64,000 nucleotides of DNA from Synechococcus sp. CBW1002 (GTDB taxonomy: Bacteria; Cyanobacteriota; Cyanobacteriia; PCC-6307; Cyanobiaceae), in assembly GCF_015840915.1 (NCBI RefSeq), contig NZ_CP060398.1:1922001-1986000 (forward strand), in the 5' to 3' direction. A program made the translations under genes and the position numbers. Positions 866 through 37,598 of this stretch are shown here, in pieces; the stretch's first letter is position 1; the number at the start of each line of letters is the position of its first letter. The notes under the pieces are model-generated. The model made no database searches, was not told where the DNA came from, and saw only the letters and a list, made by a program, of their open reading frames with translations.

Positions 866-1729
866 ATGCAAAGATCAGCCCTACGTATACCTCGGTGTTT
901 ATCTGCAGCGCTGTCTATCACCGCATGGCTTTCGCTAGCAGCATGCACTACGTCCAGCCAGCAAAAAGATCTGATTTTGGGAATTCAAGGTGCTGGTGGA
1001 CTGACTGAAACAGAGCGCCAATTTAAGCCGCTGGCAGACTACCTGTCTCAAAGTCTATCTCGCAATGTAAAGGTTGAGGTCATGCCCTCCTATCAAGCGG
1101 GCATGAACAGCATTAAAATCCATAAATATGCAATGGCGAAGCTTGGCCCCTATGCTTATGCCACTCTTCCGGTTAATTCGGGCTACAAGCTATTTGCGGG
1201 CGAGAGCTCTAAGGGTCTACCCTACTATTACTCCGTCTTCATAGCTCGCGCTGACTCTAATATCAAAGAGCTATCAGACGCCCGCGGCAAGAGAGTTGCA
1301 CTTGGGGATCCTCTGTCGGCATCTCAGTCTGTCCTTATCAACCGAGAATTGGCTTCTCTAGGCCTTTCAGCGGGAGTTGACTATACGGTCGTTAGGCTTG
1401 ATAATCATAAAGCCATTCTTAATGCCTTGGCATCCAATAAGGCCGATATTGGCCCAGTCTCTTCGCGTTTTCTTCCCAAGATTCTAGCCGCTAGTCCTAC
1501 GCTTTTTTCTGATCTAGTTGTTATTGGCAACTCAAGGCGTATTCCAAATGATGCCTGGGTCATCGACAGCACGCTTCCCAGCGACCTGAAGAGCAAGATT
1601 GAAGATGCATTCTTCTCCCTTGATGACACCAAAGTTACTGAAGAAATAGAAAATGTTGATCTGTTCAGGAATGTCTCCGATGACGAATATGATTTTTTGC
1701 GCACCACTCCTAGGTCTGCCAAGAAGTAG
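866..1729 (+). CDS. PhnD/PhoX-type periplasmic substrate-binding lipoprotein
   Basis: A 287-residue protein of the phosphate/phosphite/phosphonate ABC-transporter binding-protein type (PhnD-like, type 2 periplasmic fold). The N-terminus has a basic start, a hydrophobic stretch and a lipobox ending LAAC at about residues 24-27, so it is predicted to be a membrane-anchored lipoprotein outside the cytoplasmic membrane. The pattern of family members is visible: LGIQGAGGLTETERQFKPLADYL near the N-terminus, AKLGPYAYA near residue 90, and DARGKRVALGDPLSASQS near residue 140. No permease or ATPase gene is adjacent. In the family such orphans may act as binding or sensor proteins. It is AT-richer than the right-hand backbone and begins a run of same-strand genes, the next start being 6 bases after its stop. 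The ligand cannot be told from sequence. Confidence 0.8.
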   Translation: MQRSALRIPRCLSAALSITAWLSLAACTTSSQQKDLILGIQGAGGLTETERQFKPLADYLSQSLSRNVKVEVMPSYQAGMNSIKIHKYAMAKLGPYAYATLPVNSGYKLFAGESSKGLPYYYSVFIARADSNIKELSDARGKRVALGDPLSASQSVLINRELASLGLSAGVDYTVVRLDNHKAILNALASNKADIGPVSSRFLPKILAASPTLFSDLVVIGNSRRIPNDAWVIDSTLPSDLKSKIEDAFFSLDDTKVTEEIENVDLFRNVSDDEYDFLRTTPRSAKK

Positions 1730-1735
1730 CTCTTG

Positions 1736-2977
1736 ATGTCTGCAATTGAAGCTGGTCAATATGACTTAATTATTGTAGGAGCCGGCTTGTCCGGATTAAG
1801 TCTTGCTTCCTCTTTGCCAAATCATTCAATCCTGATTCTTGAAGCGGAAGACTATGTTGGAGGACGAGTTTGCTCGCATCAGCTAGATGGGGTGTTCGCT
1901 GAACTCGGAGCCATCTTCCCTTTCAAATCAGCCAGACTTTCAGATTCTGATTCTATCCCACTTGCTAAGCCGCTTGGTTTGTATGAGAATGGCGTTCTCT
2001 ATCTTGGTAGCGATCCGCTTGAGGTTCTCCGCAGTGCCAACGGAGGCTTAACGCCTGATTTTGATCTGTTGGCATCTTTTACCAATCCATATATATCCCT
2101 TTTAAATGGGAAGCTTCGAATTCAAAATCAGTCGTTTGGAGATCTGAGCCGGTTCTCTGCACATATGAAAAGTCAGATTGATGCATTCCATAGGGTTATT
2201 CACCCCGAGTCTGTTAATCTATATTCTCCAGCGATTGTGGGTCATTCTCTTGTTGACTGGCCTTGTCTATTCAATGATGCGCCCAATACCAGCTTTGTCA
2301 ACAGTCTATTGGAGAGCTTAGGGGGGCGAGTCGCAGTGCGTACGGGATGTCTTGTGAGCCAGGTTTCGCCTGGTCCATTCGGACAGCCAGTGGTTCAGTA
2401 TCGGACTGGCTCCGATACCTTTAGTACTCAGTCTCGGTTCTGTGCAATTACTGCTCCGGCCAGCCAAATGCTCGGCATGTTGAAAGACTTCCAGTCGTCT
2501 AACTGTAGTTTCTACCGTGATGTGCTCTATGCCTCTGGCATGGTATGCGCCATGGTTGTGGACGAATCGTCTGATTTTCCGCGGTATATCGTTAGCACTG
2601 ACCAAATCTGGTCTTCCATGATACCTCTAACCCGTAGAGGCAAGACCATTCTACACTTTTATATCACTGGATCGCAAGCTGTTTCTCTCTGGAGCTCTTC
2701 AGATGTTGAGATTGTGCGTAAGCTTGGCGAATCAATACGCTCAATCGGTCTTGTTGAGAGATTCTTTGGCGCCACCGTTCGGCGATGGCGTGAACTTGGG
2801 CCCATACTTTCTGAACAGCTCAGGCTGAGCTATTATCCTAAGCATTATCGGCTTGCTCATAATCTTTGGTTTGCGGGTGAAATGGCTCTGTATACACCAT
2901 CTTCGCCCCTTAGCTATGGAATGTCCGCCGCGATTAAGGCGGGCAAAATGATTGCTTCTGATATATTATCCGCATAG
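1736..2977 (+). CDS. FAD-dependent amine oxidase-like oxidoreductase
   Basis: A 413-residue flavoprotein. The N-terminal Rossmann motif reads IIVGAGLSGLSLASSL at about residues 12-27, followed by an acidic residue ending beta-2 (LILEAE) and the GGRV motif (about residues 41-44) typical of flavin-containing amine oxidases, phytoene desaturases and related enzymes. The C-terminus has the second FAD-contact segment (LWFAGEMALYT, then SYGMSAAIKAGKMIA). I chose ATG 1736, although a TTG lies just upstream at 1733; either start follows the previous stop within a few bases, so the two genes are probably cotranscribed. The substrate is unknown. In a YcaO locus it could oxidise a peptide side chain or amine, but that is inference. 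Codon use is AT-rich like its neighbours. Confidence 0.8.
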   Translation: MSAIEAGQYDLIIVGAGLSGLSLASSLPNHSILILEAEDYVGGRVCSHQLDGVFAELGAIFPFKSARLSDSDSIPLAKPLGLYENGVLYLGSDPLEVLRSANGGLTPDFDLLASFTNPYISLLNGKLRIQNQSFGDLSRFSAHMKSQIDAFHRVIHPESVNLYSPAIVGHSLVDWPCLFNDAPNTSFVNSLLESLGGRVAVRTGCLVSQVSPGPFGQPVVQYRTGSDTFSTQSRFCAITAPASQMLGMLKDFQSSNCSFYRDVLYASGMVCAMVVDESSDFPRYIVSTDQIWSSMIPLTRRGKTILHFYITGSQAVSLWSSSDVEIVRKLGESIRSIGLVERFFGATVRRWRELGPILSEQLRLSYYPKHYRLAHNLWFAGEMALYTPSSPLSYGMSAAIKAGKMIASDILSA

Positions 2978-3012
2978 CCCCTGCTTTTTCCTGTCACGAC
3001 GCACATTCGTCA

Positions 3013-3954
3013 ATGCCATTGCTGCCACCTTTGATTAGGGCTCATGTCTACGAGCTTCGGGATGACAGGCCAGTCTTCATCCGAACCCTTATCGAGGGCG
3101 ACATTGCTTTTCATGGGGTTAGACTAAAGGCTAGCCGATGCAACCAACTTGCTCGCAACTTGTGGGAGCTGAATAGTAATGGGTTGTGGGAGTATAGCCG
3201 GGGCTTTGGGGTTACAATGGAGGATAGCGCGCTCGTCATTGACGGCCTCATAGACTCCGGCTGGAATGCTGACGCACTCAGAAACTGCGTTGATCTACTG
3301 ATTAGATCTTTTTACGCTCCCGATGATGGCGCGTTTCATACTCTTTTTCAAGGTCGATCTAAATACTGGCTTGGGCCTTCCCTTGAGGCTAATGCGTTTG
3401 CTGTGTATTTCATTGAGAAACTTGCTTCCAGCTCTCATTCCGAGGTAAAGGAGAGTGCATTGAGATATATTCTTGAACAGCCATTGTCTCCGGCTGGGTG
3501 GAAAGGGCGTTGGTTTCAGCAGCAGGCCCTTACGAATTATTACGTGCTACGCGCCCTTGCTGCTGTAGGTAGGGAGCTCCCCCATCTGATATCAGTTCTC
3601 AATCATATGCTGCAAAGTCAGTCTGCGGGCGGTTGCTGGAATAAGAGTGTCATCTCCACCTCTTTAAATGCCTTGTCTATCGCTTGCTTGGTTGACATCT
3701 TGCCAGCCAGTGTTGCCATGCCACTTGATCCACTGAAAGCTATTTTCAAAGCGGAATCCTGGCTTGGAAGTGAGGGTGGTCTCGCCACGCATGGCGAACC
3801 CATCCTTTATTATTGGTATGAGACTGCGAGCCTTTTTTGCGGGATTGGGGGAAGGAGAATCTTCTATCACTGTGAAGATATAGGTGAGATAGGGAGTGCT
3901 TTTCGGCAGTTCAGCTTGAGAGAGATTGCCTTGAGTTTATCAGGAAGCCGCTAA
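3013..3954 (+). CDS. Alpha/alpha-toroid protein with prenyltransferase/squalene-cyclase-type repeats
   Basis: A 313-residue soluble protein of repeated amphipathic helices. Recognisable QW-like repeats include LWEYSRGFGVTMEDSALV near residues 58-75 and MLQSQSAGGCWNKSVISTS near residues 199-217, the pattern of terpene-cyclase/prenyltransferase toroids. The DXDD acid motif of class II cyclases is not seen, and the protein is about half the length of a squalene-hopene cyclase, so a single-barrel toroid is more likely than a full cyclase. It lies 35 bases after the flavoenzyme gene on the same strand and ends shortly before ISAs1. Such folds also serve in peptide modification (LanC is a toroid), so a role in peptide tailoring is possible but unproven. 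No signal peptide is seen. Confidence 0.6.
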   Translation: MPLLPPLIRAHVYELRDDRPVFIRTLIEGDIAFHGVRLKASRCNQLARNLWELNSNGLWEYSRGFGVTMEDSALVIDGLIDSGWNADALRNCVDLLIRSFYAPDDGAFHTLFQGRSKYWLGPSLEANAFAVYFIEKLASSSHSEVKESALRYILEQPLSPAGWKGRWFQQQALTNYYVLRALAAVGRELPHLISVLNHMLQSQSAGGCWNKSVISTSLNALSIACLVDILPASVAMPLDPLKAIFKAESWLGSEGGLATHGEPILYYWYETASLFCGIGGRRIFYHCEDIGEIGSAFRQFSLREIALSLSGSR

Positions 3955-5096
3955 GGAATTTGGGAGTCAAGTCTGATGAAAGGTGTGTCACAGGTGCGCT
4001 GGGCTGCCAGTGCACACCACTAGGACCACCCACGCAGCAGGCACTGCAGGTGGTGTCGTAGGAGCGTCTTGGCTGAGCAGTATCGCTCGGTTAGATCAAG
4101 ATGCCCTTGAACCCTGAACGCAAACAGCCAGGGCTGCCTAAAAGTGTGATCAGCCCAAGCTCCCTCGGCTGGCCACGCCGCCAAGTGCCAGCATTCCCTT
4201 GATGTCGTAGGCCAACTCCCGCAGGCCTTGGCGGATCGAGCGGTAGCCGCCCCGCCGCAGCAAGTTCATCACGATGGTTCGCAGGAAGGCGAACACCGGG
4301 GCCCCGATCCGGTTGGCGTAGCGATGAGCGTCCTCACCCAGCTGGACGTCACGGGCCCAGTGCCATTCGTTCTCAATGCTCCAGCGCTGACGGATCAGGC
4401 GCAGCAGGGCTTGTGGCGTGGTGCGCACGCTGGTGAGGAACAGGTGGTGCCTGATCTTGCGCTTGCCCTTGCGGGTGAGGGTGCCTGTGATCACCTCAAC
4501 GATCCAGGCGCTGCCGGGCCAGTTGGCTTTGATGTGCTCCGGTGCCTCTCTGGCTCGCAGTTCCCAGACGGTGTCGCGCCCGTGGCGCTTCTCGTGATCT
4601 GTTGCAGTGAAAGGGATGTGACGCTTTCCCTGGAACTGGCAGCCGATCTGGCGGTAGAGGGTCTTCTGGTTCGATTTGACGGTCAGGAGCACGTCGGCCC
4701 CCTGGGAGAGGCACCAGCGAAAAACGCCTGCGTCGTGTGCAGGGCATCCGCCTGGATCAACACGCCATCGAGATCCAGGCTGCTGAGCAGCTCTTTCAGC
4801 GCCGCACGCTCACTGGATTCGTGGGTGTCATAGGTCGTCTGGGCCAGTGCGACGCCAAGGGCCCGGGCGTACACCGTGACCTGGGCGACAAACCGGTGAC
4901 TGCCGTCTTCTGTCTCCACGGCAGAGCCGCGCAGGGTCTTGCCATCACACACCAGCTGATCCAGACCCGTTGCCCCGCTTGGGACCTGGCTGATCATCCA
5001 GGCCTGCAGCACCTGGCCAAACTCCTGCAGGTGGGCCTTGTTGAACAGGTAGAGGAAGGTGGCATCGGAGGGCCAGCGCTTGAAATCCAGGCCTAG

Positions 5097-6848
5097 GAGC
5101 CTGTCGCGCATAGATCACCGCCCGCATTCTCCACAGACGCCCCTGAATCTGCCCAGATCCCAGTGACTGCAATGGATCTGGCCGATAAGATGGGGTATGA
5201 GCAAGCCCAAGACCTTCCGGCCCTGGACTCCGGGACAGACCAGCTTGATGCCGCCGTCGCCAATCGACTGGCTGCCGAGCGATCACCTGGTGTTCTTCCT
5301 GCTGGAGCTGGTGGAGGAACTGGACTTTGCGCTGATCATGTCTCCCGCCCGGCAGAAGGATGCCCGCGGTGAGAAGGGGTATGACCCCAGGATGCTGACG
5401 CTGCTGTTGCTGTATGCCTACTGCATCGGCATGGCCTCGTCTCGCAAGATCGAGCGGGCCTGCCATGAGGATGCGGCTTTCCGGGTGCTGACCGGCAACC
5501 AGCAGCCGGACCACAGCCGCATCAGCGACTTCCGCCGCCGCCATCTTGGAGCCCTGGAGGAGCTGTTTGTGCAGATCCTGCGCCTGTGCCAGAAGGCCGG
5601 CATGGTGAGCCTGGGACAGGTGGCGCTGGATGGCACCAAGGTGAAGGCCAATGCCTCCAAACACAAGGCCATGAGCCACCAGCGGATGCTCAAATCCGAG
5701 GAGCAGTTGGAGCAGGAGATCAGGGAGCTGCTGCGCAAGGCCGAGATCCTCGACGCCCAGGAGGATGGCCGCTACGGCAAGGGCAAACGCGGCAGCGACC
5801 TGCCTGAGGCACTGAGCCGCCGAGAAGACCGGCTGGAGAGGATCCGCCAAGCTCGCCGGGAACTGGAGGCTGAAACCGCGGCTGCCGCTGCACGGGAACG
5901 GCAGGAGCAGGCGGCAGCGGCAGCGAAGGCCGCGGAAGAGGGGCCCGAGCAGCAACGGCAAGAATGCAGCAAGACAGCCGATCGCGTAGTCGAGAAGGCA
6001 GCTGCGGCAAAAGATCTGGCGATCGCCAAGGCCAACGAGGCGGGCCTGGGACCACCTGATCTTGAGCCGCTGGCCGCCGATCAGATGCCCCATCGCGGCC
6101 TGGCGCACAAGGCTTGCGGCACACCGACAAAAGGCAGCCAGCGCAATTTCACTGATCCAGCCAGCCACATCATGAAGAGCGATGGGAACTGGATTCAGGG
6201 CTACAACTGCCAAGCAGCTGTGGATGGGGACTACCAGGTGATCGTGGCCATCGGCGTCAGCAACCAGCCGCCTGATGTGGAGCATCTCGAACCGATGCTT
6301 GAGCGCACCATTGCCAACACCGCTCAGCTTCCGAAAACATTGATCGCGGATGCCGGCTACTGGAGCGAGGCCAACGCCGAGGCCTGCACGGCACGGGGCG
6401 TCGATCCCCACATCGCGACCGGCAGGGAGAAGCACGGCCAGCCTCCAGCACCAACCCGTGGCCCCATCCCCAAAAACCTGGATGCCAAGGGCCGGATGAA
6501 CCGCAAGCTGCGCTGCAAGAAGGGACGCGAGATCTACGCCAGGCGCAAGACGATCGTGGAGCCCGTCTTTGGTCAGACCAAGGAATGCCGCGGGCTGCGC
6601 CGCTTTCTGCTGCGCGGCCTGGACAACGTGAACGGTGAATGGGCGCTCTGGTGCCTGACCCACAACATCAACAAGTTGTTCAGGTTCAAAGCAGCACTGG
6701 CAGCTTGAGGGGACAGCCCCTCTGGCTGCCGCTGCCTGCTGCAGCCGACGATTGGCCGGAAACACCGGCATTGAGATGCCGATAACCAAGACCATTGGTT
6801 CAGCACGTGCTTGGCTCGCTGGCGCTGCTGGTTTTGGGCGACAAACTC
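5097..6848 (+). mobile_element. IS1182-family insertion sequence, copy a (1752 bp)
   Basis: The ends are imperfect inverted repeats: GAGCCTGTCGCGC on the left and the complement of GAGTTTGTCGCCC on the right. CTAG occurs immediately outside both ends (5093-5096 and 6849-6852) and is the target duplication, which lies in the ISAs1 transposase gene. An identical-length copy is found at 18099-19850, apparently base-for-base the same, so transposition was recent. A decayed relative lies at the left edge of the window, also next to CTAG. Confidence 0.92.
5197..6708 (+). CDS. IS1182-family transposase
   Basis: A 503-residue DDE transposase. The N-terminal domain (about residues 1-130) carries the conserved LPSDHLVFFLLELVEEL and DHSRISDFRRRH segments. 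VALDGTKVKANASKHKAM near residue 148 holds the first catalytic Asp. The middle (about 190-280) is a charged, alanine-rich helix. LIADAGYWSEAN near 385 gives the second acid and IVEPVFGQTKECRG near 455 the catalytic Glu. The frame is intact and full length for the family, and an identical copy exists at 18199-19710, so it is probably active. Very long frames on the opposite strand are shadows of its codon bias. Confidence 0.93.
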   Translation: MSKPKTFRPWTPGQTSLMPPSPIDWLPSDHLVFFLLELVEELDFALIMSPARQKDARGEKGYDPRMLTLLLLYAYCIGMASSRKIERACHEDAAFRVLTGNQQPDHSRISDFRRRHLGALEELFVQILRLCQKAGMVSLGQVALDGTKVKANASKHKAMSHQRMLKSEEQLEQEIRELLRKAEILDAQEDGRYGKGKRGSDLPEALSRREDRLERIRQARRELEAETAAAAARERQEQAAAAAKAAEEGPEQQRQECSKTADRVVEKAAAAKDLAIAKANEAGLGPPDLEPLAADQMPHRGLAHKACGTPTKGSQRNFTDPASHIMKSDGNWIQGYNCQAAVDGDYQVIVAIGVSNQPPDVEHLEPMLERTIANTAQLPKTLIADAGYWSEANAEACTARGVDPHIATGREKHGQPPAPTRGPIPKNLDAKGRMNRKLRCKKGREIYARRKTIVEPVFGQTKECRGLRRFLLRGLDNVNGEWALWCLTHNINKLFRFKAALAA

Positions 6849-7325
6849 CTAGCGCCTGGTTCAGCGCTTCCCGGTGCCGCCTGGCGAAGGCCTCCAGATC
6901 CCGGGAGCTCCTGCAGCCGCTCAGGATCCCGAGCACAGCCACCAGCAGCAGGAACCACTGCGGGTAACGCACCCCGCGGCGGTAACGCCCATCCGGGATG
7001 GCCTTGAGGAAGCTGATCAGGTCATCCGGTGCGGGCTGATCGACTCCGGTGGAGCGGGTTTCGGGCATTGGGGGCACTGAGACCCGCCGACCAAACCCAA
7101 TGCTGGCAGACCTGCCAAGAGCTACCAGGACAGACTTTTAGGCGACCCTGCGCAAACAGCGGTGCAAGGAAAATGTCGAAATGGTCATCGATCAGATCAA
7201 GGCTATGGTCGCATCAATCAATTGACGCTCTACTGGTGTTAGTACTTGGGTCGGTGCGGTCTGCGCCATCCGGTAGTAGATTTACTTGTAAGCTCGTCAG
7301 CAAGGATCTTGACAGACATGGAACG

Positions 7326-7640
7326 ATGAATCCAAATTTAGTGTGGCAAGTGGGAGCTTGCCTGTTGATGTATGTCTTGGCTGCAAGACGATCCTCAAGC
7401 ACTGGCTTTTTCGCCAATCAGCCCAGAGGTCTAGCTTCACAAGAGTTTATTTGTAAGACTCTTTCCCGCTTTAATGCTGGGCTTGATGTTCTTTGGGCAC
7501 GAGAATCTCTAGCCAGGATGGTTGCCAAAGGCTTGGGCTGCAATAGCTCATGCTTGGTCAGTCCTCAGGGCGGTCGTGGCTTTGCATATTCCTTGAGCCT
7601 CGTCACTGCAGAAGCATTAGTGGTTTTGATCTCTTGGTAA
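7326..7640 (+). CDS. Small unknown ORF translationally coupled to the YcaO gene
   Basis: An ATG at 7326 opens a 104-codon frame (MNPNLVWQVGACLL, later QEFICKTLSRFNAGLD, and ending EALVVLISW). Its TAA stop shares a base with the ATG of the YcaO gene (TAATG at 7638-7642), an arrangement that usually reflects translational coupling, and this is the best evidence that it is real. The frame runs further upstream, so the true start could be earlier, or ISAs1 may have removed its beginning. It has three cysteines and a hydrophobic start but no domain I recognise. It could be a truncated YcaO partner or a remnant. Confidence 0.4.
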   Translation: MNPNLVWQVGACLLMYVLAARRSSSTGFFANQPRGLASQEFICKTLSRFNAGLDVLWARESLARMVAKGLGCNSSCLVSPQGGRGFAYSLSLVTAEALVVLISW

Positions 7641-8809
7641 TGGAAGATCTTAAGACATCGCTCCGAACTCAATCTGCCGCCACAACCATTGACTTGGTTA
7701 GTCCCTATCTCGAGGGCTTGGGAATCGTTGGCGTCATCGACCATACTAGTAGCCGTATACCTGAGCTTCATGTCTTTGAAGCGCTGAGGAATAATGCTCA
7801 TTCGGGTTATCTTAATCTTGGCAAGGGTTATACGGCGCCAGCCGCTACTGCTTCGGCGATCATGGAAGGGATTGAGATGAGCCTGATTGAGTCTCCTCGT
7901 ATTAAGGGTATGCCAAGGTCAAGTAGTCTCGAAGGCCGAACTGTCCGTTTTCGCGATGCTGAATGCAGCCTTTCTTCGAATCTCGAAGAATTAATAGTGA
8001 GCTTTATCCCTTGTAAAGACCTTATCTCCAATGCCACATGCTTCGTTCCAGATTGTGATGTCTTTTACCCCGTAGCATTGGAAGCAGGGATGCCACTGAA
8101 ATCGTTCACCAATGGACTTGCATCTGGCAATACCCTCGAAGAGGCGATGTTGCATTCTCTCTATGAGCTAATAGAAAGAGATGCAATGCATAACTATCTT
8201 AGCAATCCTGATTCTGCAAATCCTATCTGCTCTGCCTCCTTTAATGATCAGCTTCTTGATAGCGTTACCGCTCGACTGGCTGATCAAGGCCATTTTCTAA
8301 TACTAAAGTCATTACGATCCAAGGCTGCAGCAGTTTTCGAGGCCACCCTTTTCATCCAGGCTCCAGATGAAACCTATCGCGGCTTCAATGGATGGGGCTG
8401 TAATCATAGTCCGTTGATTGCAGCTCGCCGCGCCATTGCAGAAGCTGCGCAGGTATGGCGTATTCAAGAGGCGATAAATCTGAATACACTTCCAGCTAGC
8501 CGGCGCAAGGGTGGCTACGTTATTTGTTCCGATGATTACTTGTGCATGCCAAGGTCTCATCTAAATCCCAAGCCGATGATTGCAGCCATAAATGAAATCA
8601 TTTCACGTTCCGCTAGCGGTATAGTTGGTATGCAAACTGCAGACAGTGACTTGTCGGTGGATCCCAGTCTCCTAGTTAGTGATCTAATCGCAAAGCTTGC
8701 GGCAATTAATGTAGCAGGCCTCTTTTGCGTACGCCTCAGTCCGGAGGAGCTTCCTGTGCATGTAGTCCGCTGCTTTTCTTCTGACTTGAACTGTCCAATT
8801 GGCCTTTGA
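7640..8809 (+). CDS. YcaO-family ATP-dependent peptide-modifying enzyme
   Basis: A 389-residue YcaO protein starting at ATG 7640. YcaO enzymes use ATP to activate peptide backbone amides, making azolines, thioamides or amidines in RiPP pathways. Visible family motifs are the nucleotide-binding segment NLGKGYTAPAATASAIMEG IE around residues 59-79 (with Glu76 and Glu79) and NGLASGNTLEEAMLHSLYEL at residues 158-177 followed by IERDA, with Glu168, Glu176 and Glu179 in the metal/ATP-binding positions. The C-terminus ends DLNCPIGL and lacks the PxPxP tail of azoline-forming cyclodehydratases. No E1-like or TfuA partner is seen in the window. It is coupled to the small ORF upstream, and the oxygenase gene follows 26 bases after its stop. 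Codon use is AT-rich, like the rest of the cargo. Confidence 0.9.
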   Translation: MEDLKTSLRTQSAATTIDLVSPYLEGLGIVGVIDHTSSRIPELHVFEALRNNAHSGYLNLGKGYTAPAATASAIMEGIEMSLIESPRIKGMPRSSSLEGRTVRFRDAECSLSSNLEELIVSFIPCKDLISNATCFVPDCDVFYPVALEAGMPLKSFTNGLASGNTLEEAMLHSLYELIERDAMHNYLSNPDSANPICSASFNDQLLDSVTARLADQGHFLILKSLRSKAAAVFEATLFIQAPDETYRGFNGWGCNHSPLIAARRAIAEAAQVWRIQEAINLNTLPASRRKGGYVICSDDYLCMPRSHLNPKPMIAAINEIISRSASGIVGMQTADSDLSVDPSLLVSDLIAKLAAINVAGLFCVRLSPEELPVHVVRCFSSDLNCPIGL

Positions 8810-8835
8810 GGTCTTTGTAATCTTCATTTCAACTT

Positions 8836-9765
8836 ATGAATCTGTCTTCTAAACTTGCCGCCTTAATTCAGGAGCACCCCAGTCTGAGCTATGGTGAGTT
8901 GCATGACATGCTTTGTGATCAAGGCTGGGCACTAGAACCGCTTACTGTCGAGGAACATAAATTAGCCAATCAAGTGCCAGGATGGAAGGCTTTAATCATC
9001 CTTTGTGTGAATGCACAGCTGTCAGAGCGAAAGGCTCAATCGTTTCCACAGCTGATTCCGACTGGCGAGACGCTTTGTCGTGACAAGCTTGTTTCCTCTG
9101 TAGTGATAGCCAAGATGCTTTCTCTTTATGAGGACCAAATCCTGATTCGAGGAGATGGTCCGCTTTGTCTGGCTGGTTACGTGTCTGATCCCAGCCTGCA
9201 GCTATCTCAGGCACTTATTGATATTGCAAAGAGTGTTGTTGCAGACCTTGCGCACAGTTCTTTATTGATTGATCAGTCTCTCCTTGGCGAATCTATGGTT
9301 CTGCTTATGAATCGTTGCTTGCTCCGCCGAACCTATCCATGCTATGAAATTAGTCAGAGCTCAAAGAATAAGAATAATCAGGACTGGCATCAAGATAGTA
9401 GTCTTGTGTATGGTGGGAGGCCTATGTTGACTCTGTGGATCCCATTGCAAGAGTATTCCGGTCAGAAGATACCGGGAATTGAACTTGCTAGTCTTAGGTC
9501 AGGCTACTTTTCGTCGCATTTCGGAGATGGTATCGAGAACCTGGCAGATGTTTCCAAGGATTTCCCAGATGAAACCGTTTCTACGGTCATTCCACGCCTC
9601 AATGCTGGTGGGTATGCCGTTTTCAACGGACTAACATATCATCGCACATATGCCAACAATGGCATGAGTAGCGCTCGCGATGCCTTGTTGATTAGGATTG
9701 CGCCTCGTTCCCATGCAGGCTACTTTCCTGGTGATCGCTCCAATGATATTGAGTTTAGGTTGTGA
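8836..9765 (+). CDS. Phytanoyl-CoA dioxygenase-like Fe(II)/2-oxoglutarate oxygenase
   Basis: A 309-residue protein with the PhyH-type metal site. The segment DWHQDSSL supplies His185 and Asp187, followed by LTLWIPLQ. LTYHRTYANN supplies the distal His269, with Arg281 in ARDALLIR as the likely 2-oxoglutarate ligand. PhyH-type enzymes hydroxylate or otherwise oxidise small molecules and, in some pathways, peptides. The N-terminal 100 residues are extra to the catalytic core and unrecognised. The gene follows ycaO on the same strand and overlaps the next gene by four bases (GTGA), so the three form one transcriptional unit. Peptide or amino-acid oxidation in the YcaO pathway is inferred from context. 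Confidence 0.78.
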   Translation: MNLSSKLAALIQEHPSLSYGELHDMLCDQGWALEPLTVEEHKLANQVPGWKALIILCVNAQLSERKAQSFPQLIPTGETLCRDKLVSSVVIAKMLSLYEDQILIRGDGPLCLAGYVSDPSLQLSQALIDIAKSVVADLAHSSLLIDQSLLGESMVLLMNRCLLRRTYPCYEISQSSKNKNNQDWHQDSSLVYGGRPMLTLWIPLQEYSGQKIPGIELASLRSGYFSSHFGDGIENLADVSKDFPDETVSTVIPRLNAGGYAVFNGLTYHRTYANNGMSSARDALLIRIAPRSHAGYFPGDRSNDIEFRL

Positions 9766-10610
9766 ATGTTGAGATATTAGGGTCGGGTCCTGTTGCGCTT
9801 AGCTATGGCCACTGGCTTGCATGGCGCGGTCATAAGGTACGTCTCATAAGGAGCGATTTAATTCATTCACGTGAATCCCCTCCACTTCTTACTTGTGAGC
9901 TTGAGATGGGTGGGCGGAGGATAACCCAGCTTGATCTCTCTTTGGCATGCATACCCCACAACCAAGTATCTTCGCTACCTTTTGATCCCGATATCATTGT
10001 CATTGTAGCTGTTCCAGAGTCTCTATCGGGCTATCTCTCGTATTTGCTTTCCGATGGCACCGCCTTCAAGCCTGTAATCTTGCTGACTAGCTGGCAGAAG
10101 AAGCTTGGTGAACTTGTCACGCAATTGCCTTTCAACTGTCTTCCTGCTTATCCTCTAATCTGCTGTGAGGAATGGGCTGGTAACCTAGCAGCAGTGGGTG
10201 GTCAGTGGCTTGAAGTCGATGAGTCACTTGCCGGTTCTACTTATGGGCTTGGCTCGATCAAGATGCTAGAGCAGTTAGGCTTTGGCATCAGGCTCATTCC
10301 AATGAGCAAACGTTTCAGGGCTCGTTTTGCGCAAACGTCTTTTGCATACTCGTATCTACGTAGCCACCCATCCTATGAATATTCTTTTCCCGTTATTGGC
10401 TTTGATGTCGCCAGCGCCATGCCTAGGCTAAGGATTCTGCTTGCCTCCGAATCCGATCTGCTCTCTGAGGTAGACTATATTACTTCACTCTTGGATAGTC
10501 TTTGGGGTCAACGGTTTCAAAGCGGTACTCAAGGCTGGATACTTGACACTCTGATGCGACACAAGTCTGGCAAGACTGATTACTTTCTTGAAAGGCTCTG
10601 GCTGGGTTGA
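9762..10610 (+). CDS. NAD(P)-dependent dehydrogenase resembling ketopantoate reductase / opine dehydrogenase
   Basis: A 282-residue protein starting at GTG 9762, which overlaps the oxygenase stop as GTGA. Residues 4-30 form a nucleotide-binding Rossmann start (ILGSGPVALSYGHWLAWRG followed by HKVRLI), with the GxGxxA-like spacing of ketopantoate reductases and opine dehydrogenases. A later segment VIVAVPESLSGYL fits the end of a Rossmann sheet. The C-terminal half is helical but carries no conserved signature I can name, so the substrate is open. Likely role: reduction of a keto/imine group or oxidation of an alcohol made by the preceding oxygenase; this is inference from the operon. Confidence 0.6.
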   Translation: MNVEILGSGPVALSYGHWLAWRGHKVRLIRSDLIHSRESPPLLTCELEMGGRRITQLDLSLACIPHNQVSSLPFDPDIIVIVAVPESLSGYLSYLLSDGTAFKPVILLTSWQKKLGELVTQLPFNCLPAYPLICCEEWAGNLAAVGGQWLEVDESLAGSTYGLGSIKMLEQLGFGIRLIPMSKRFRARFAQTSFAYSYLRSHPSYEYSFPVIGFDVASAMPRLRILLASESDLLSEVDYITSLLDSLWGQRFQSGTQGWILDTLMRHKSGKTDYFLERLWLG

Positions 10611-10647
10611 TCTTAACCTGCTCAGTGATCTTTCTGTTCTCAAACCT

Positions 10648-11715
10648 CTAAGTATGTTGTTCTACAAGGCGAACATAAGACTTTAGCCTTGCCTTGGAAT
10701 CAGGCGAGAAGATAATCTTAATGTGGTTTAGCTTGGCAACTCTTGTCTTGGTTGCTATTCTCTCTGCCCCATCAAGAAAGCCGCGCATTTCAATGCCCTT
10801 TGGCAAGTAGCTCAGCAAGCTTGAGATGCTCTCGATCTGAGCTGAATCGACCTTAAAAACGTCGCCAACCAATCGATGAACTGTTTTAGGGAGTGCACGA
10901 CCCAAGAGGCCTTGAGGATGGATTTCGATTCCGATTTGTGATAACAAAATATCGCTGTCAAGGTCGATGTCAACACTGGTTGCTGGGCGCAGATAGTTAC
11001 CATGTTCTTTAAGGATTGTAGAGTATGACTCCAGATCAAGGTCCCAGGAGTCATTGGTAATGCTAGCTAAATATTGGATATGCGAGTCAATCTGTGTTGG
11101 GCATAGATGTTGCTTCATGAGTTTTAGGTACGAGCCTCGACCGCACATGAGACCAATCTGGGCCGCATGGCCTAATAACTGATAGAAATGCCGTACAGTT
11201 TTTGAGCATGCTATGCTTCCTTCCCCAGATTGCCAAGATTCGAGAGTTGAAACGATTTTTTCCCAATCCCCTGGCTGCACTTCTCCATTTGATCTAACCA
11301 TCTGCCATATCCCTGCCATAATAAGATCGTCGCTTCCTTGGTCGAACTCGATCCAGTTCTCACATGGAAGATACAGCCCTGGCCCTGCGAAGGAGAGGTC
11401 ACATCCTTCAATGCAATCTCTTTGAACCTTGGGCCACCATTCTGGCACTATTCGCCTGCGCCCACCATTGGCGAATTGCTTAGCATTGCAATATACTAGA
11501 TAGTCGGGGTGAGAGTCGGGCTTGTAGTGATGATATTCAAAGCCGCAGGTGGTTTCGTTGGTCTCATACAGTTGATCAAGCTCTCGAGCAAGTAAAAGAG
11601 CTTGAGCGTACTTGTTTGCCCCCGTTTGGTCAGTGCATTCAGATACATACCATTCTACAAGGCTTGCATGAGATGCTCGTGGATTGGATTTCAGGTTGTT
11701 AGGAGTGGTTGCCAT
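10648..11715 (-). CDS. Unknown 355-residue protein, convergent with the YcaO operon
   Basis: The frame opens as far back as 11793, but ATG 11715 (MATTPNNLKS) is the more natural start because the preceding stretch is basic and cysteine-rich with no ribosome-binding site. I do not recognise a family. Visible features are an aromatic-rich first third (EYHHYKPDSHPDYL), a segment LSFAGPGLYLPCENWIEFD near residue 107, and a pattern DIDLDSDILLSQIGIEI HPQG near residue 250 followed by a helical C-terminus. No signal peptide or membrane segment is seen. It ends 37 bases from the dehydrogenase gene with no clear terminator between them, and it shares the AT-rich codon use, so it probably belongs to the same locus. 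A role as peptide-binding or tailoring partner is speculation. Confidence 0.55.
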   Translation of the reverse strand: MATTPNNLKSNPRASHASLVEWYVSECTDQTGANKYAQALLLARELDQLYETNETTCGFEYHHYKPDSHPDYLVYCNAKQFANGGRRRIVPEWWPKVQRDCIEGCDLSFAGPGLYLPCENWIEFDQGSDDLIMAGIWQMVRSNGEVQPGDWEKIVSTLESWQSGEGSIACSKTVRHFYQLLGHAAQIGLMCGRGSYLKLMKQHLCPTQIDSHIQYLASITNDSWDLDLESYSTILKEHGNYLRPATSVDIDLDSDILLSQIGIEIHPQGLLGRALPKTVHRLVGDVFKVDSAQIESISSLLSYLPKGIEMRGFLDGAERIATKTRVAKLNHIKIIFSPDSKARLKSYVRLVEQHT

Positions 11716-11852: not shown

Positions 11853-13529
11853 GCTTGCGTCCCCTGTGTTGGTGTAAATCCCTGGGGACCTCAACCCCGG
11901 CGTAGCCGGGGTTGAGCGCGCACCTCAGACGTTCCGCTCAGCGGCCAGCGTTGCAAGGGGTGGGCAGGCCCGTGACCCTGGTTTGAGCACTACCTCAACC
12001 AGACGAACCATGCCCACGTCCAATCGTGCCGCAATTGAGCTGGCGCCGCTACTGGATGGCAGCAGCGCCGGTGAGCTGATCCCCGAGCTGGTGCGCCACG
12101 GCCTGCAGCAGCTGATCGAGCTGGAGGTCGCTGCCGTGCTCGGCGCAGAGCGCCATGAGCGCAGCGAGGAGCGGCTCGGCTACCGCAACGGCTACCGGCC
12201 GCGCACCCTGGCCACCCAGGTGGGGGACATCGATCTCCGCATCCCCAAACTGCGCTCCGGCAGCCACCTGCCCTCGATCCTGGAGCCGCGCCGCCGTGTG
12301 GACCAGGCCCTCTACGGCGTGGTGATGGAGGCCTATGTCGGCGGCATCTCAACGCGCAAGGTCGACGCCCTGGTGGCCGCCCTGGGAGTCCAGAGCGGCA
12401 TCTCCAAATCTCAGGTGAGCCGCATCTGCGCTGACATCGACATCCAGGTGCAGGCCTTCCTGAACCGCCCCCTTGAGGCCACCGGCTACGCCTACCTGTA
12501 CCTCGATGCCACCTATCTCCACGGGCGTCTCGGCAAGGCGATGCAGGTCTGCTCCAGGGCTGTGGTGGTGGCCATGGGCGTCAATGCCGATGGTCGCCGC
12601 GAGCTGCTCGGCATCAAGGTGGGCGACAGCGAAACCGAGAGCTTCTGGAGCGAGTTCATTGGCTCGCTCAAGGAGCGCGGCCTCACTGGGGTCAAGCTCG
12701 TGATCAGCGACGCGCACGTGGGCCTCACCAAGGCGATCCGGCGGATGCTGCAGGGCAGCTGCTGGCAGCGCTGCAGGGTCCATTTCGCCAGAAACCTGCT
12801 CCAACGGGTGCCCAAGGCCCACCAAGGCATGGTCACCGCTGCCTTGCGCTCGGTGTTCGCCCAGGAGAAAACGGACGAAATCGAGGCCCGCTGGGACGAT
12901 CTGGCCAGCTCACTGGTGGATCGCTTCCCCAAGGCTGCTGAGCTCATGCTGCACGCCCGGGAAGACGTGCTCGCCTTCCGTCACTTCCCGCCTCAACACT
13001 GGAAAAAGACTTGGAGCACCAACCTGCTCGAGCGCCTCAATGAGGAGATCAAACGCCGCACTCGGGTGGTTGGCATCTTCCCGAATGACGCCTCGATCAC
13101 CCGCTTGGTGGGGGCTGTGCTGCTGGAGCAGGACGAGCACTGGCAGCTGGAGGGCCGGCGCATGTTCTCCGCCGAGAGCATGGCCGCCATCCCCTCACTG
13201 GCGGAGCTGCCCACGCAGCCTTCCTTGCAAGAAGCAGCGGCCTGAGCCTCAGGCCCCAGGAGATCGCGCCGTAGCGCCCCCACAGGGCGCAGCGGCGGCG
13301 ATCACCGCCCGGGGGCCGGCACCGCAGACGTCACGACCAAGATTGCAGGTGTAGCCCACAACCGATCGGCAATCCAGACGAAAGACTTGACAAGTCAATC
13401 GTCTGGATTCATCGTGAAATAACGAGGTGCACATGCGCCTCGAGAATGACAGCCCGTCATTCACCCCTGTTCTCCCTCAGTCCAGGGCAATCGGGCCTCG
13501 GGATTTACACCACGCCAAGGGACGCGGCC
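11853..13529 (+). mobile_element. IS256-family insertion sequence, variant a (intact)
   Basis: Inverted ends share GCGTCCC and, 7 bases further in, GGTGTAAATCCC (11857-11882 and its complement at 13500-13525). An 8-bp direct repeat AGATCCTT flanks the element (11845-11852 and 13530-13537), matching the known 8-9 bp duplications of the family. The left end contains a GC-rich hairpin with arms CCCCGG near 11896-11912 that could block read-through transcription into the transposase. Pieces of the same variant reappear in reverse orientation at 25922-27439 and 37440-37598. Confidence 0.92.
12010..13245 (+). CDS. IS256-family (Mutator-type) transposase
   Basis: A 411-residue transposase from ATG 12010 (an in-frame ATG nine codons upstream is less likely because the other variants begin MPKTHR and MPNAYF). 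Motifs of the family are visible: YRNGYRPRTLATQVGDIDL near residue 58, YLYLDATYLHGRLGK near 165 with the first catalytic Asp, LVISDAHVGLTKAI near 233 with the second, and NLLERLNEEIKRRTRVVGIF near 339 with the catalytic Glu. The CRVHFARNLL segment is also typical. The frame is full length and undamaged. Confidence 0.93.
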   Translation: MPTSNRAAIELAPLLDGSSAGELIPELVRHGLQQLIELEVAAVLGAERHERSEERLGYRNGYRPRTLATQVGDIDLRIPKLRSGSHLPSILEPRRRVDQALYGVVMEAYVGGISTRKVDALVAALGVQSGISKSQVSRICADIDIQVQAFLNRPLEATGYAYLYLDATYLHGRLGKAMQVCSRAVVVAMGVNADGRRELLGIKVGDSETESFWSEFIGSLKERGLTGVKLVISDAHVGLTKAIRRMLQGSCWQRCRVHFARNLLQRVPKAHQGMVTAALRSVFAQEKTDEIEARWDDLASSLVDRFPKAAELMLHAREDVLAFRHFPPQHWKKTWSTNLLERLNEEIKRRTRVVGIFPNDASITRLVGAVLLEQDEHWQLEGRRMFSAESMAAIPSLAELPTQPSLQEAAA

Positions 13530-13636: not shown

Positions 13637-13783
13637 ATGCAATGCGCCAACACAGCGGCTGGCTATTCGTATAGAATGAACAACCGAAATGTACCGCTAA
13701 AAGTGAGGATTTGCTTCAGCTTCTTATTAGTGAGCCTTGGGACCAGCCCATTGTTGGCGGTAGGCGAAAACGTGGAGCGCTAA
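13637..13783 (+). CDS. Possible small exported peptide ORF
   Basis: A 48-codon frame (or 35 codons from the in-frame ATG at 13676) with a signal-peptide-like layout: basic NNRNVPLKVR, then hydrophobic ICFSFLLVSLGTSPLLA, then GENVER and TAA. The stop comes shortly after the predicted cleavage region, so it may be the beginning of a decayed exported protein. It lies in an otherwise empty stretch between IS256 and IS66. Evidence is composition only. Confidence 0.25.
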   Translation: MQCANTAAGYSYRMNNRNVPLKVRICFSFLLVSLGTSPLLAVGENVER

Positions 13784-13958
13784 TTCCAGCTTGCCCTAGA
13801 CTACCGGATAGCACGCAAGGCACCCAGTGGTCAGGAGTGCCTTGGTCGCCTCCATCTCGCAAAGCGCCTGCCAAGCTTTGGCGCTGACATGCAACATAAG
13901 ACCGGTTACATCGCTAAACCCACTTTAAATTCGAAGACTTGTAGAGGTACCTGGAAGA
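13784..13958. other. Intergenic stretch without recognised gene
   Basis: Together with 13538-13636 this is the non-IS sequence between IS256 variant a and the IS66 element. No frame with a recognisable product is present. Removal of IS256 joins it to the upstream flank of the unknown gene ending at 10648, so it originally formed the region upstream of that gene and may have carried its promoter. Confidence 0.4.
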
Positions 13959-17164: not shown

Positions 17165-17500
17165 ATGACGGAAGAACAACTCCCCCAGTCCTTCCTGGAA
17201 TTCTTGGAAGCCGTCAAAGGCGATAGCGCCCTGCAGGAGCGCCTCAGTGCGGCTGCAGACCTGGATGCCTTGGTGGCCATTGCCAAGGAAGCTGGATATG
17301 CGATCAGCAAGGCTGAGATCACGAAGGCTCAAGGGATGGCCAGTAGTGCCATGAGCGAACTCAGCGATGAGGCACTGGCAGGCGTTGCAGGCGGCGCGTG
17401 GCAAGGGCCTGATAACGTGTCTGAACTACAGATCACATCGCCCGCGCCCGGCGGCGTGGATTTCACAAGATTAGTCTTCATTCAGAGGATTGGTCAGTAG
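17165..17500 (+). CDS. Nif11-type leader peptide: RiPP precursor
   Basis: A 111-residue precursor of the Nif11/nitrogen-fixation-like leader family. The leader begins MTEEQLPQSFLEFLEAVKGD and contains the family helix AIAKEAGYAISKAEI. It ends with ELSDEALAGVAGG at residues 65-77, a double-glycine cleavage site recognised by C39 peptidase exporters. The 34-residue predicted core starts AWQGPDNV and ends LVFIQRIGQ. It has no cysteine but contains two Ser and two Thr, so a lanthionine or thiazole product is unlikely. A frame extends upstream to 16988 inside the IS66 end; ATG 17165 is chosen because Nif11 leaders start with M(S/T)EEQ. A paralogue remnant lies at 37599. The YcaO enzyme in the same island is the natural candidate modifier. 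Confidence 0.85.
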   Translation: MTEEQLPQSFLEFLEAVKGDSALQERLSAAADLDALVAIAKEAGYAISKAEITKAQGMASSAMSELSDEALAGVAGGAWQGPDNVSELQITSPAPGGVDFTRLVFIQRIGQ

Positions 17501-29587: not shown

Positions 29588-29702
29588 ATGGCAGCCAAGG
29601 AGTGACACCTTCCCTGAAAGTTACCGTAACGGACTCGGAGCCAAGGGGTTGCATCATCCCGTTTGGAGTCTCCCATCAACTGCCTACGGCAGGAGGAATG
29701 GG

Positions 29703-30756
29703 ATGACAACAGACAAGCCGCTACCGATTACCAAGGTGATGGTCTGGAAGGCCTATCAACAGGTGAAACGGAACGGACAGGCGGCCGGTGTGGATGGCCA
29801 AAGCCTGGACGACTTCAACAAGGATCTGGAGAATAATCTCTACAAACTCTGGAATCGGATGGCATCAGGAAGTTATCTTCCGCCACCAGTTCGGCGTGTG
29901 GAGATTCCCAAATCCGGTGGAGGCGTCAGGCCGCTGGGTATCCCGACGGTTGCTGATCGCATCGCACAGATGGTGGTCAAGCAGGTGCTGGAGCCAGAGC
30001 TGGAGCTGATCTTTGATCAGGATTCCTACGGCTACAGACCGGGCAAGTCAGCGCATCAGGCAGTAGAGGTCTGCCGTCAGCGCTGCTGGAGGTCCAACTG
30101 GGTTCTCGATCTCGACATCAAGGGGTTTTTCGATGCTATCGATCACGACCTGTTGATGCGCGCGATCAAGGCCCATACCTCCGAGCGCTGGGTGGTGCTC
30201 TACCTGCAACGATGGCTGCAGGCACCGGTTCTGTTGCCGGATGGCACGCTCCATCCCAGGGACCGGGGCACACCGCAAGGTGGTGTCATCAGTCCACTGC
30301 TGGCCAATCTGTTCCTGCACTATGCGTTTGATGTGTGGATGCGCCGGAGCCACCCGGCCATTGCCTTTGAGCGCTATGCAGATGATGTGATCTGTCATTG
30401 CCACAGCGAGAAGGAAGCTCGGCGGTTGCTGGAGGCATTGCAGGATCGCTTTGCGTCCTGTGGCCTCCAGCTTCATCCCCAGAAGACCCAGGTGGTCTAC
30501 TGCAGGGATAGCAACCGCCGGGCACCGCTTGCTGATGTCACGTTCACGTTTCTTGGTTTCGCGTTTCGGCCACGTGTGTCTCGCAATTCTCGCGGAGTCA
30601 TCTACACAGGCTTTTTGCCGGCAGTGAGTCCGCAGGCTCTCCAGCGTATGCGGGAGAGGATTAGGTCGATAGGGCTTCCATCGCTCGTGTATCTGTCGCT
30701 TGAGGAGATCGCTAAAGTGCTGAATCCAGTGATTCGTGGCTGGATTCAGTACTATC
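29703..30756 (+). pseudogene. ltrA: Group II intron reverse transcriptase/maturase, C-terminally truncated (copy 1)
   Basis: The protein starts at ATG 29703 behind AGGAGG (29692-29697). Reverse-transcriptase blocks are visible: GVDGQSLDDFN, RRVEIPKSGGGVRPLGIPTV, VLDLDIKGFFDAIDHDLL, GTPQGGVISPLLANLFLHYA and AFERYADDVICHCHSEKEA with the YADD active site. The maturase domain X begins (ISLPSLVYL-type segment) and reaches IRGWIQYY, then the frame runs into unrelated codons from the Fic fragment. Unlike copy 2 its RT domain has no frameshift, so the polymerase half could still be made. Confidence 0.87.
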
Positions 30757-31140
30757 GAGTCCGCCCTGCTCTGGTTGTCGAGGCAGCGACGTCCAAGCCC
30801 ACTTCAGGAGGCCTGGCTGCGTCGCCTTCACCGCGAGATGTTCGGCCAGAGCTGGCGGTGGGCCGGCCAGTACCGCACCAGCGACAAAAGCATTGGTGCC
30901 GACTGGCGGCAGATCCGGATGCAGGTCCCGGCCCTGTTGGCTGACATCGCTTATCAGGTGGAACATCGGGTGGCGTCGGTGGATGAGATCGCCGTGCGTT
31001 TCCATCACCGCCTGGTCACCATCCACCCCTTCCCGAACGGGAACGGTCGCCACGCACGGCTGATTGCCGACGTGTTGATCGAGCAGCTGGGGGCTCCACG
31101 CTTATCCTGGGGAGGTACAGGGACGCCTCAAGGTCGCTAG
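30757..31140 (+). pseudogene. Fic-domain protein fragment (mobile mystery protein B type)
   Basis: The frame visible from 30736 encodes SPLQEAWLRRLHREMFGQSW, then WAGQYRTSDKSIGADWRQIR and FHHRLVTIHPFPNGNGRHAR. HPFPNGNGR is the Fic active-site loop (His, with GNGR for ATP binding), and the surrounding pattern is that of the Fic proteins called mobile mystery protein B, which occur on mobile elements with an HTH partner. Fic enzymes usually transfer AMP to protein targets. The N-terminus is cut by the junction with the group II intron at 30757 and the C-terminus ends early (GGTGTPQGR), so it is a remnant. The partner gene (protein A) is absent. Confidence 0.75.
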
Positions 31141-37439: not shown

Positions 37440-37598
37440 ATGGTTCGTCTGGTTGAGGTAGTGCTCAAACCAGGGTCACGGGCCTGCCCACCCCTTGCAA
37501 CGCTGGCCGCTGAGCGGAACGTCTGAGGTGCGCGCTCAACCCCGGCTACGCCGGGGTTGAGGTCCCCAGGGATTTACACCAACACAGGGGACGCAAGC
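37440..37598 (-). mobile_element. Left end of IS256 variant a (3' exon of intron copy 2)
   Basis: This is the exact reverse complement of the first 159 bases of the variant a element at 11853 (through the AT of the transposase start codon), ending with the terminal GGGGACGCAAGC at 37598. It includes the CCCCGG hairpin near 37541-37557. Its terminus lies inside the Nif11-type gene that follows. Confidence 0.9.

Follow-up and report, generated by a model that had tools for sequence, protein, structure and literature searches.

A candidate two-module RiPP gene cluster with Nif11-type precursors around the YcaO gene of Synechococcus sp. CBW1002

In this study we analysed a locus around a YcaO gene in a 64,000-nucleotide stretch (the window) of the Synechococcus sp. 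CBW1002 genome (G000). We consider it fairly probable that this locus is a RiPP gene cluster of two modules which insertion sequences have scattered, and that its substrates would be Nif11-leader, double-glycine precursors. From the gene content we infer each of the chemical steps proposed below, as well as the idea that all parts yield one product. The initial annotation had proposed a YcaO-centred RiPP-type locus. This core idea is strengthened by six of its genes being found with Nif11 precursors in a relative (G045), and by YcaO, PhyH and Rossmann genes occurring together in Nif11 clusters of rhizobia and Mycetohabitans (Pseudomonadota).

All seven genes annotated between 866 and 11715 are intact ORFs, and they are AT-rich as had been described, with a GC content of 0.466-0.494 against 0.667 and 0.717 in two other large window ORFs. 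The forward strand encodes a PhnD-like substrate-binding lipoprotein (866..1729; Pfam Phosphonate-bd, E 1.4e-48), a FAD-dependent amine-oxidase-like enzyme (1736..2977, starting at 1733 or 1736; Pfam Amino_oxidase, E 1.2e-9), a squalene-hopene-cyclase-like alpha/alpha toroid as a stand-alone domain (3013..3954), the YcaO enzyme (7640..8809; PF02624, E 4.9e-34), a PhyH-like Fe/2-oxoglutarate oxygenase (8836..9765) and a Rossmann oxidoreductase resembling ketopantoate and P5C reductases (9762..10610). On the reverse strand lies a gene for a protein of no Pfam family (10648..11715), which is conserved in G045. The toroid matches Pfam SQHop_cyclase_C below the cut-off (8e-4), and a three-sequence profile leads to squalene-hopene cyclase at E 5.9e-11. 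The Pfam PhyH match is likewise below the cut-off (0.01), but the HxD...H...R residues and the blocks WHQDS, FNGLTxH and RDxLLIR are kept in all six aligned homologues, which come from two phyla. The Rossmann assignment is based on profile matches to PDB sequences (E 0.002-0.005). Neither the Rossmann protein nor the family-less protein has a Pfam match at E <= 1, and the latter has nothing among PDB sequences at E < 1. Single-sequence structure prediction was uninformative for the family-less protein and the toroid (mean pLDDT 33 and 40).

The genes form two separable modules in three blocks, with insertion sequences splitting two blocks. Module A contains the YcaO, PhyH and Rossmann genes; module B would comprise the flavin oxidase, the toroid and the family-less protein. 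Tight gene spacing had initially been read as the sign of one pathway unit, and this reading had to be given up. The YcaO start is at 7640 and not at 7550, as similarity to G045 climbs steeply at the ATG at 7640, and the supposed TAATG overlap therefore ties YcaO to an improbable ORF. Insertion-sequence DNA with DDE_Tnp_1 and DUF772 transposase matches fills the gap between toroid and YcaO (~4150..7100, limits approximate, with G045 homology picking up again at 7400). The family-less gene is convergent to the Rossmann gene, 37 bases apart. The three blocks, the insertion-sequence DNA and the convergent gene exclude a single operon. A 4-base overlap does exist between the PhyH and Rossmann genes (9762-9765). 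The locus is flanked by a Mutator/IS256-type transposase gene on the forward strand (11983..13245; PF00872, E 1.7e-130), beyond which 13722-13851 is again homologous to DNA adjoining the family-less gene in G045.

G045 belongs to another genus of the same family and is the sole close relative found, so that the complete gene set is observed in two genomes only. A single 33-kb stretch of G045 holds the six genes other than PhnD, a broken PhnD gene, three Nif11 precursors and an exporter. The neighbourhood check proposed at the outset, for co-occurrence of PhyH, toroid, flavoenzyme and Nif11 genes, thus returns six of the seven genes plus Nif11 precursors near the YcaO gene. The six genes are intact in G045 and 69-81% identical (YcaO 75%, FAD enzyme 70%, toroid 75%, PhyH 81%, family-less protein 77%). 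Their dN/dS values of 0.15-0.25 indicate purifying selection (FAD enzyme 0.19, toroid 0.16, family-less protein 0.15), at a dS of 0.64-0.97. The PhnD gene of G045 is disrupted: it contains stops and an insertion sequence and has suffered a deletion. Because it is a pseudogene there, the PhnD-like lipoprotein is probably cargo outside the pathway, and we have removed it from the pathway genes among which it was first counted. Dense insertion sequences and the degenerate PhnD could also suggest that all of the genes are unrelated cargo among transposons with no shared function. We find this hardly credible; it is largely refuted because six genes and two precursors are retained under selection and module A is linked in another phylum.

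The candidate substrates are encoded outside the window. The precursors and the exporter were missing from the initial set and lie beyond 866-11715. Two precursors are encoded at G000:C1:1908817-1909453, which is 13 kb upstream of the window, one of them occupying 1909139-1909453. An NHLM-like exporter comes after these two precursors, and transposases lie between them and the window. Two of the three Nif11/double-glycine precursors of G045 are orthologous to this pair, with 79% identical DNA and dN/dS values of 0.41 and 0.13. Using TIGR03798 (cut-off 32.3 bits), the second G000 precursor reaches 43 bits and the third G045 precursor 52 bits, whereas the first G000 precursor stays under the Nif11 cut-off at 19.9 bits; the Pfam Nif11 search listed neither this protein nor its G045 orthologue. 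GG sites can be read in the precursors, and their cores contain no Cys and few Ser/Thr. All four orthologous cyanobacterial precursors end in [LM][VI]K, as do all eight full-length proteobacterial ones (several near-identical), and the third G045 precursor ends in INIG. This ending occurs in none of the 568 stop-to-stop frames of the window. We also rejected the tail as a general Nif11 trait, since none of the other 18 frames with a Nif11 domain in the two genomes ends in it. The exporter is matched best by NHLM models, with scores under their equivalog cut-offs, and the exporters of G000 and G045 share only 25-40% identity. This peptidase/ABC exporter would cut the leader at GG and export the product. 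Within the window there is an orphan Nif11/GG precursor (17165..17500, forward strand; PF07862, E 3.9e-12), which does not end in [LM][VI]K and whose link to the YcaO pathway is putative.

Parallels to module A come from proteobacterial plasmids. PhyH homologues were found in 25 plasmid records, which represent few lineages, with a YcaO gene 3.6-4.4 kb away in all 25. Nif11 precursors with the [LM][VI]K C-terminus are present in all four of the PhyH plasmid clusters read; in a fifth plasmid cluster, that of R. rhizogenes, TfuA and two YcaOs occur without a PhyH match. The window YcaO clusters with YcaO1 of the proteobacterial clusters with a tree support of 100/99, and SxxMExxE, GLASGN...EA..H...E..ER and RA..EA.Q are invariant in 11 aligned YcaOs. 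As in the window, a Rossmann-type gene follows PhyH in the proteobacterial clusters, a match made up of about 25 residues (E 0.003-0.06) and the gene position. One proteobacterial core, TIMAAALVK, has what we take to be a resemblance to the thioviridamide core. Other homologues occur in different surroundings: the 33% identical PhyH of G004 is flanked by ABC transporters without YcaO, for the PhyH homologues of G403 and G417 the 20 kb read contains no further gene of the locus, and the approximately 30% identical YcaOs of G021 and G354 adjoin TfuA and group elsewhere in the tree. Scanning genome contigs gave no relative for YcaO, with the window's own genome possibly left out, and one Sinorhizobium contig for PhyH.

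The initial annotation had stated that none of the usual YcaO partners is present, and this holds genome-wide for TfuA, TIGR03882 and above-cut-off SagB. The gene at 7640..8809 is the only YcaO gene found in G000, and G045 also has one. Whole-genome searches of the two found no TfuA, no TIGR03882 cyclodehydratase (a model over cut-off in none of 14 control genomes either) and no SagB azoline dehydrogenase over cut-off; the one SagB match of G000 (26.9 against a cut-off of 78.4 bits) is at 3418789, ~1.4 Mb from the locus. LanM (DUF4135) was found in neither genome. The ThiS, MoeB, methyltransferase, TfuA and LanM proteins of the proteobacterial clusters find no counterpart in the window, the preceding 20 kb or the G045 stretch, and therefore no sulfur donor is seen there. 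A PxPxP C-terminus is a feature of azoline-forming YcaO enzymes and is absent from the window YcaO, whose best PDB match is MJ1094 of M. jannaschii and whose best NCBIfam model is a thioamidation YcaO.

Based on these comparisons, the YcaO most likely acts alone, activating backbone amides near the precursor C-terminus and installing thioamides or an amidine. It would phosphorylate the amides with ATP, and a nucleophile would then displace the oxygen. We favour sulfide, giving a thioamide by analogy with the TfuA-less methanogen YcaOs, and place an amidine second; thioglycine is reported in M. jannaschii in the absence of TfuA (PMC5589413). In the amidine version, the C-terminal Lys side chain or the N-terminal amine attacks the activated amide and closes a ring. 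This seems unlikely to us. It would fit the absence of ThiS, MoeB and TfuA matches near the cyanobacterial genes, the C-terminal lysine common to cyanobacterial and proteobacterial precursors, and the macroamidine of bottromycin, made by a partner-free YcaO (PMC8442711). However, the nearest solved structure and the best NCBIfam model are those of thioamidation YcaOs, and the proteobacterial YcaO1 clusters encode ThiS, MoeB and TfuA. A third product, Ser/Thr oxazolines made by a LAP-type pathway with an unknown partner, is very unlikely given that TIGR03882 was found in neither genome, SagB is not above cut-off, the YcaO has no PxPxP and the cores are without Cys and poor in Ser/Thr, even though a LAP-type pathway has been proposed for marine Synechococcus YcaO clusters that carry Nif11-type precursors (PMC10783134). 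After YcaO, with thioamide formation as the favoured step, the PhyH oxygenase would hydroxylate a side chain close to the C-terminus, in the manner of TsaJ in thioamitides. A PhyH-family enzyme is described as hydroxylating a histidine close to the C-terminus of a thioamitide (PMC8153245). The Rossmann enzyme, acting last in module A, would probably reduce an oxidised or imine intermediate. The target of this series would be the hydrophobic C-terminal segment ending in [LM][VI]K.

For module B, we propose that the FAD oxidase, the toroid (holding or cyclising the substrate) and the family-less protein would make a second oxidative change. In G709, from another cyanobacterial order, a FAD oxidase-toroid fusion is found beside the family-less protein, Nif11 and LanM, next to a Nif11 lanthipeptide cluster. 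The match of the family-less protein is weak there (E 2.8e-5), and the profile search did not list G709. Distant homologues of this protein lie beside Nif11 precursors in G140 (23% identity) and G709 (27%). A weak toroid match was also seen in G437. We rejected a terpenoid pathway, as Nif11 precursors lie ~25 kb away or nearer in G000, G045 and G709, where FAD enzyme, toroid and family-less protein co-occur. The question arises whether the modules are separate pathways joined by insertion sequences, with module A alone acting on the Nif11 precursors. Insertion-sequence DNA lies between the modules in both genomes and their relative orientation differs, the plasmid collection holding module A has no tblastn match to toroid or FAD enzyme, and the G709 stretch read has module B genes without those of module A. 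Nevertheless, both modules occur together in two genera with similar dS over the six genes, and each is tied to Nif11 precursors elsewhere, and we thus judge separate pathways to be somewhat unlikely.

It is possible, rather than probable, that the locus belongs to a new RiPP class. In this class, a partner-independent YcaO1 clade, together with PhyH and a reductase, would modify Nif11 [LM][VI]K C-termini in cyanobacteria, Alphaproteobacteria and Betaproteobacteria, for instance by closing a lysine amidine. The pair of FAD enzyme and toroid would likewise be a new peptide-modifying enzyme, with a squalene-cyclase fold recruited to peptide chemistry. A literature search, with subscription works and most preprints outside it, found no description of this enzyme set and no described RiPP role for a pair of squalene-cyclase-like toroid and flavoenzyme. 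The locus defines two portable tailoring modules, one of them a flavoenzyme with a squalene-cyclase-like toroid. Since this genome has a lone YcaO, with no TfuA, TIGR03882, LanM or above-cut-off SagB found, solo action by a RiPP YcaO of its clade can be tested directly with one enzyme and one precursor.

The Nif11 YcaO/TfuA/LanM plasmid clusters of Rhizobium, Sinorhizobium and Mycetohabitans share the [LM][VI]K precursors, the YcaO clade and the order of PhyH followed by Rossmann gene. They differ by adding TfuA, a second YcaO, ThiS/MoeB, a methyltransferase and LanM, and contain no match to the FAD enzyme, toroid or family-less protein of the window. Thioamitides such as thioviridamide and thiostreptamide S4 also combine YcaO with a PhyH-family oxygenase acting near the C-terminus (PMC8153245). 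However, they need TfuA and carry a C-terminal Cys-derived ring, whereas the window locus has PhyH, no TfuA found and Cys-free cores. The methanogen thioglycine-forming YcaO MJ1094 is the closest solved structure by sequence and its organism is described as having no TfuA (PMC5589413), but its substrate is the large enzyme subunit McrA and not a RiPP precursor. The Nif11/NHLM bacteriocin systems and the prochlorosins share the leader family, the double-glycine site and an NHLM-like exporter, while our locus has no LanM match and different modifying enzymes. The YcaO clusters of marine Synechococcus are likewise picocyanobacterial with Nif11-type precursors and differ in their LynD-like YcaO and SagB-like dehydrogenase (PMC10783134).

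The seven genes that the initial annotation had read as one YcaO-centred pathway are all present as described, with corrected limits, and, PhnD probably excluded, they form a real, conserved RiPP-type locus of new composition, organised as two modules in three blocks. The genes are PhnD-like (866-1729), an FAD enzyme (ending at 2977), a squalene-hopene-cyclase-like toroid (3013-3954), YcaO (7640-8809), PhyH-like (8836-9765), Rossmann (9762-10610) and, on the minus strand, a gene without a Pfam family (10648-11715), whose product we call the unclassified protein. They are AT-rich, as had been claimed, with a GC content of 0.466-0.494 in all seven, while two further large ORFs from the window reach 0.667 and 0.717, and transposase domain matches lie before, within and after the set. 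The window (G000:C1:1922001-1986000) sits on a single contig of 3.85 Mb. It also carries a Ycf66 gene, as would suit a cyanobacterium, two reverse-transcriptase-like ORF copies (29649-30944 and 36057-37362, the second split over two frames; group II intron type, by eye) and a 441-aa minus-strand ORF at 31602-32927 within a GC dip.

A six-frame search of 400 same-family genomes matched the YcaO in four: the genome under study (G000), G045, which comes from a different genus and is 75% identical, and, at about 30%, G021 and G354. The neighbourhood comparison that had been suggested with this protein shows that G045 keeps six of the genes together with Nif11 precursors within 33 kb. There, YcaO, PhyH and Rossmann lie with the convergent unclassified gene, then come three Nif11/GG precursor genes, and past an insertion sequence follow the minus-strand genes for the toroid and the FAD enzyme plus PhnD remnants. 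The six genes are 69-81% identical between the genomes (dN/dS 0.15-0.25, dS 0.64-0.97); two precursor pairs give dN/dS of 0.41 and 0.13 and dS of 0.28 and 1.27. PhnD of G045 contains stops and an insertion sequence and has suffered a deletion, so it is probably dispensable and probably does not belong to the pathway in which it had been counted.

Searched over their whole genomes, G000 and G045 each have a single YcaO, and the reported absence of the usual partners is borne out: no TfuA or TIGR03882 cyclodehydratase was found, nor any LanM, by models positive in one, none (above cut-off) and none of 14 control genomes respectively, the last yet positive in G709. SagB has no match over cut-off in either genome, and one weak G000 match lies far off. 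The YcaO retains its ATP-site blocks. Since partner matches and a PxPxP motif are both absent, it is predicted, within the reach of these models, to be a stand-alone enzyme. YcaO enzymes activate backbone amides in an ATP-dependent manner. The solved structure nearest to ours is MJ1094; excerpts of published work report thioglycine in M. jannaschii although TfuA is lacking (PMC5589413), and an amidine also formed by a partner-free YcaO (PMC8442711). In thiostreptamide S4, thioamidation requires TsaH and TsaI, and the PhyH-family member TsaJ hydroxylates a histidine close to the C-terminus (PMC8153245). The product would most likely be a thioamide, with an amidine as second and an oxazoline as third candidate. 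However, tblastn found no sulfur-relay genes beside the cyanobacterial cluster.

One of the two modules, made up of YcaO, PhyH and Rossmann, recurs in plasmids of another phylum. Among 72,556 plasmid records, YcaO matched 230 and PhyH 25, and a YcaO match lies 3.6-4.4 kb from PhyH in 25 of 25 PhyH records, which represent few independent lineages (11 Sinorhizobium, 11 Rhizobium, 3 Mycetohabitans). The four of these that were examined carry Nif11 precursor(s), YcaO1, TfuA, YcaO2, PhyH, a Rossmann-type gene, ThiS, MoeB, a methyltransferase and LanM, except that the R. johnstonii record stops after ThiS, that the Mycetohabitans order is partly inverted, and that R. beringeri has its Rossmann start immediately ahead of the annotated ThiS ORF with no separate gene annotated, which excluded it from the Rossmann alignment. 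R. rhizogenes, the fifth plasmid record examined, carries TfuA along with two YcaOs and shows no PhyH match. PhyH keeps the Fe/2OG oxygenase residues HxD, distal H and R in all six alignment rows. The Rossmann link is weaker, suggested by about 25 N-terminal residues and position; its profile leans toward ketopantoate and pyrroline-5-carboxylate reductases. A tree built from 13 YcaOs, with long branches flagged, places the proteins of the window and of G045 with the four YcaO1 (support 100/99) and separates them from YcaO2 and from forms adjacent to TfuA. As TfuA overlaps YcaO2 and not YcaO1 in Mycetohabitans, YcaO1 may be TfuA-free, although TfuA directly follows YcaO1 in Rhizobium and Sinorhizobium. 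The proteobacterial TfuA, ThiS, MoeB, methyltransferase and LanM have no tblastn match (E 0.01) in the window, the preceding 20 kb or the G045 stretch. Against the proposed pathway, a G004 homologue of PhyH (33% identity; L027, G004:C9:498001-518000, at 9660-10523) has a large ABC transporter gene on either side and no YcaO within the 20 kb examined, possibly another use of this oxygenase, and the G403 and G417 matches have none of the other cluster genes in the stretches examined.

Two of the G045 precursors are orthologous (DNA 79% identical) to G000 genes 13 kb ahead of the window (L019:6817-7453, G000:C1:1908817-1909453). Their G000 cores downstream of GG, AWTNSDDNDRAVVSGVISFGMMVK and SWSGNEGVDSGLAWAGGVVGAGVAVPAAMAATAILIK, lack Cys. 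The four orthologues end in MMVK, ILIK, VMVK and ILIK, and all eight full-length proteobacterial precursors, several near-identical, end in TIMAAALVK or TPMAAALIK; an annotated ORF from Sinorhizobium, truncated within the leader, was excluded. An [LM][VI]K ending occurs in none of 568 stop-to-stop frames (at least 60 residues) of the window, none of 18 other Nif11-domain frames of both genomes, and neither in the third G045 precursor, the two in-window Nif11 frames nor the G709 and G140 precursors. Between the G000 precursors and the window lie ORFs that look by eye like transposases, as well as an exporter of three genes; the models that fit it best, NHLM ABC2, ABC1 and HlyD, all score under cut-off. 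TolC, HlyD, ABC1 and ABC2 directly precede YcaO in G045, their HlyD and ABC proteins sharing only 25-40% identity with those of G000. The window also holds an intact orphan Nif11/GG precursor (17165-17500, core AWQGPDNVSELQITSPAPGGVDFTRLVFIQRIGQ) amid transposases, with no modifying enzyme recognised adjoining it, and a truncated one (37557-37760, with SWAGNE at its end), which may be a degraded copy of this precursor type. Elsewhere, a Nif11 domain joined to a cupin-like domain (by eye) is conserved in both genomes (L038, G000:C1:3646900-3648200, and L046 in G045).

The other module, made up of the FAD enzyme, toroid and unclassified protein, could serve a pathway separate from that of YcaO, PhyH and Rossmann. 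Among 386 genomes from the phylum the toroid profile matches four, one weakly, and in the order of G709 only G709 itself among 388. There the FAD enzyme and toroid are fused (716 residues), convergent to a 397-residue protein weakly like the unclassified one (27% in alignment; E 2.8e-5 when 28 kb were searched). The fusion adjoins a Nif11 precursor (core ACWRWSG), LanM, a tryptophan-halogenase-type enzyme, a DUF6445 protein and a pair of UPF0489 proteins, of which one is joined to a 2OG oxygenase domain; this Nif11 lanthipeptide cluster (L035, G709:C126:38301-58300) seems to be a pathway of its own for a hypermodified peptide. Over 386 genomes, the unclassified-protein profile lists only G000, G045 and G140, and not G709. 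In G140 the homologue adjoins three precursor-like ORFs with GG (one by tblastn, the others by eye).

A description of this enzyme set was not found in the literature searched. A figure on TfuA clusters in Malit and others (PMC8120280) names a phytanoyl-CoA dioxygenase and ThiS; Nif11 precursors are named there for other clusters. The YcaO clusters of marine Synechococcus, as far as the accessible part of their description goes, differ from ours in having SagB-like enzymes and a LynD-like YcaO (PMC10783134).
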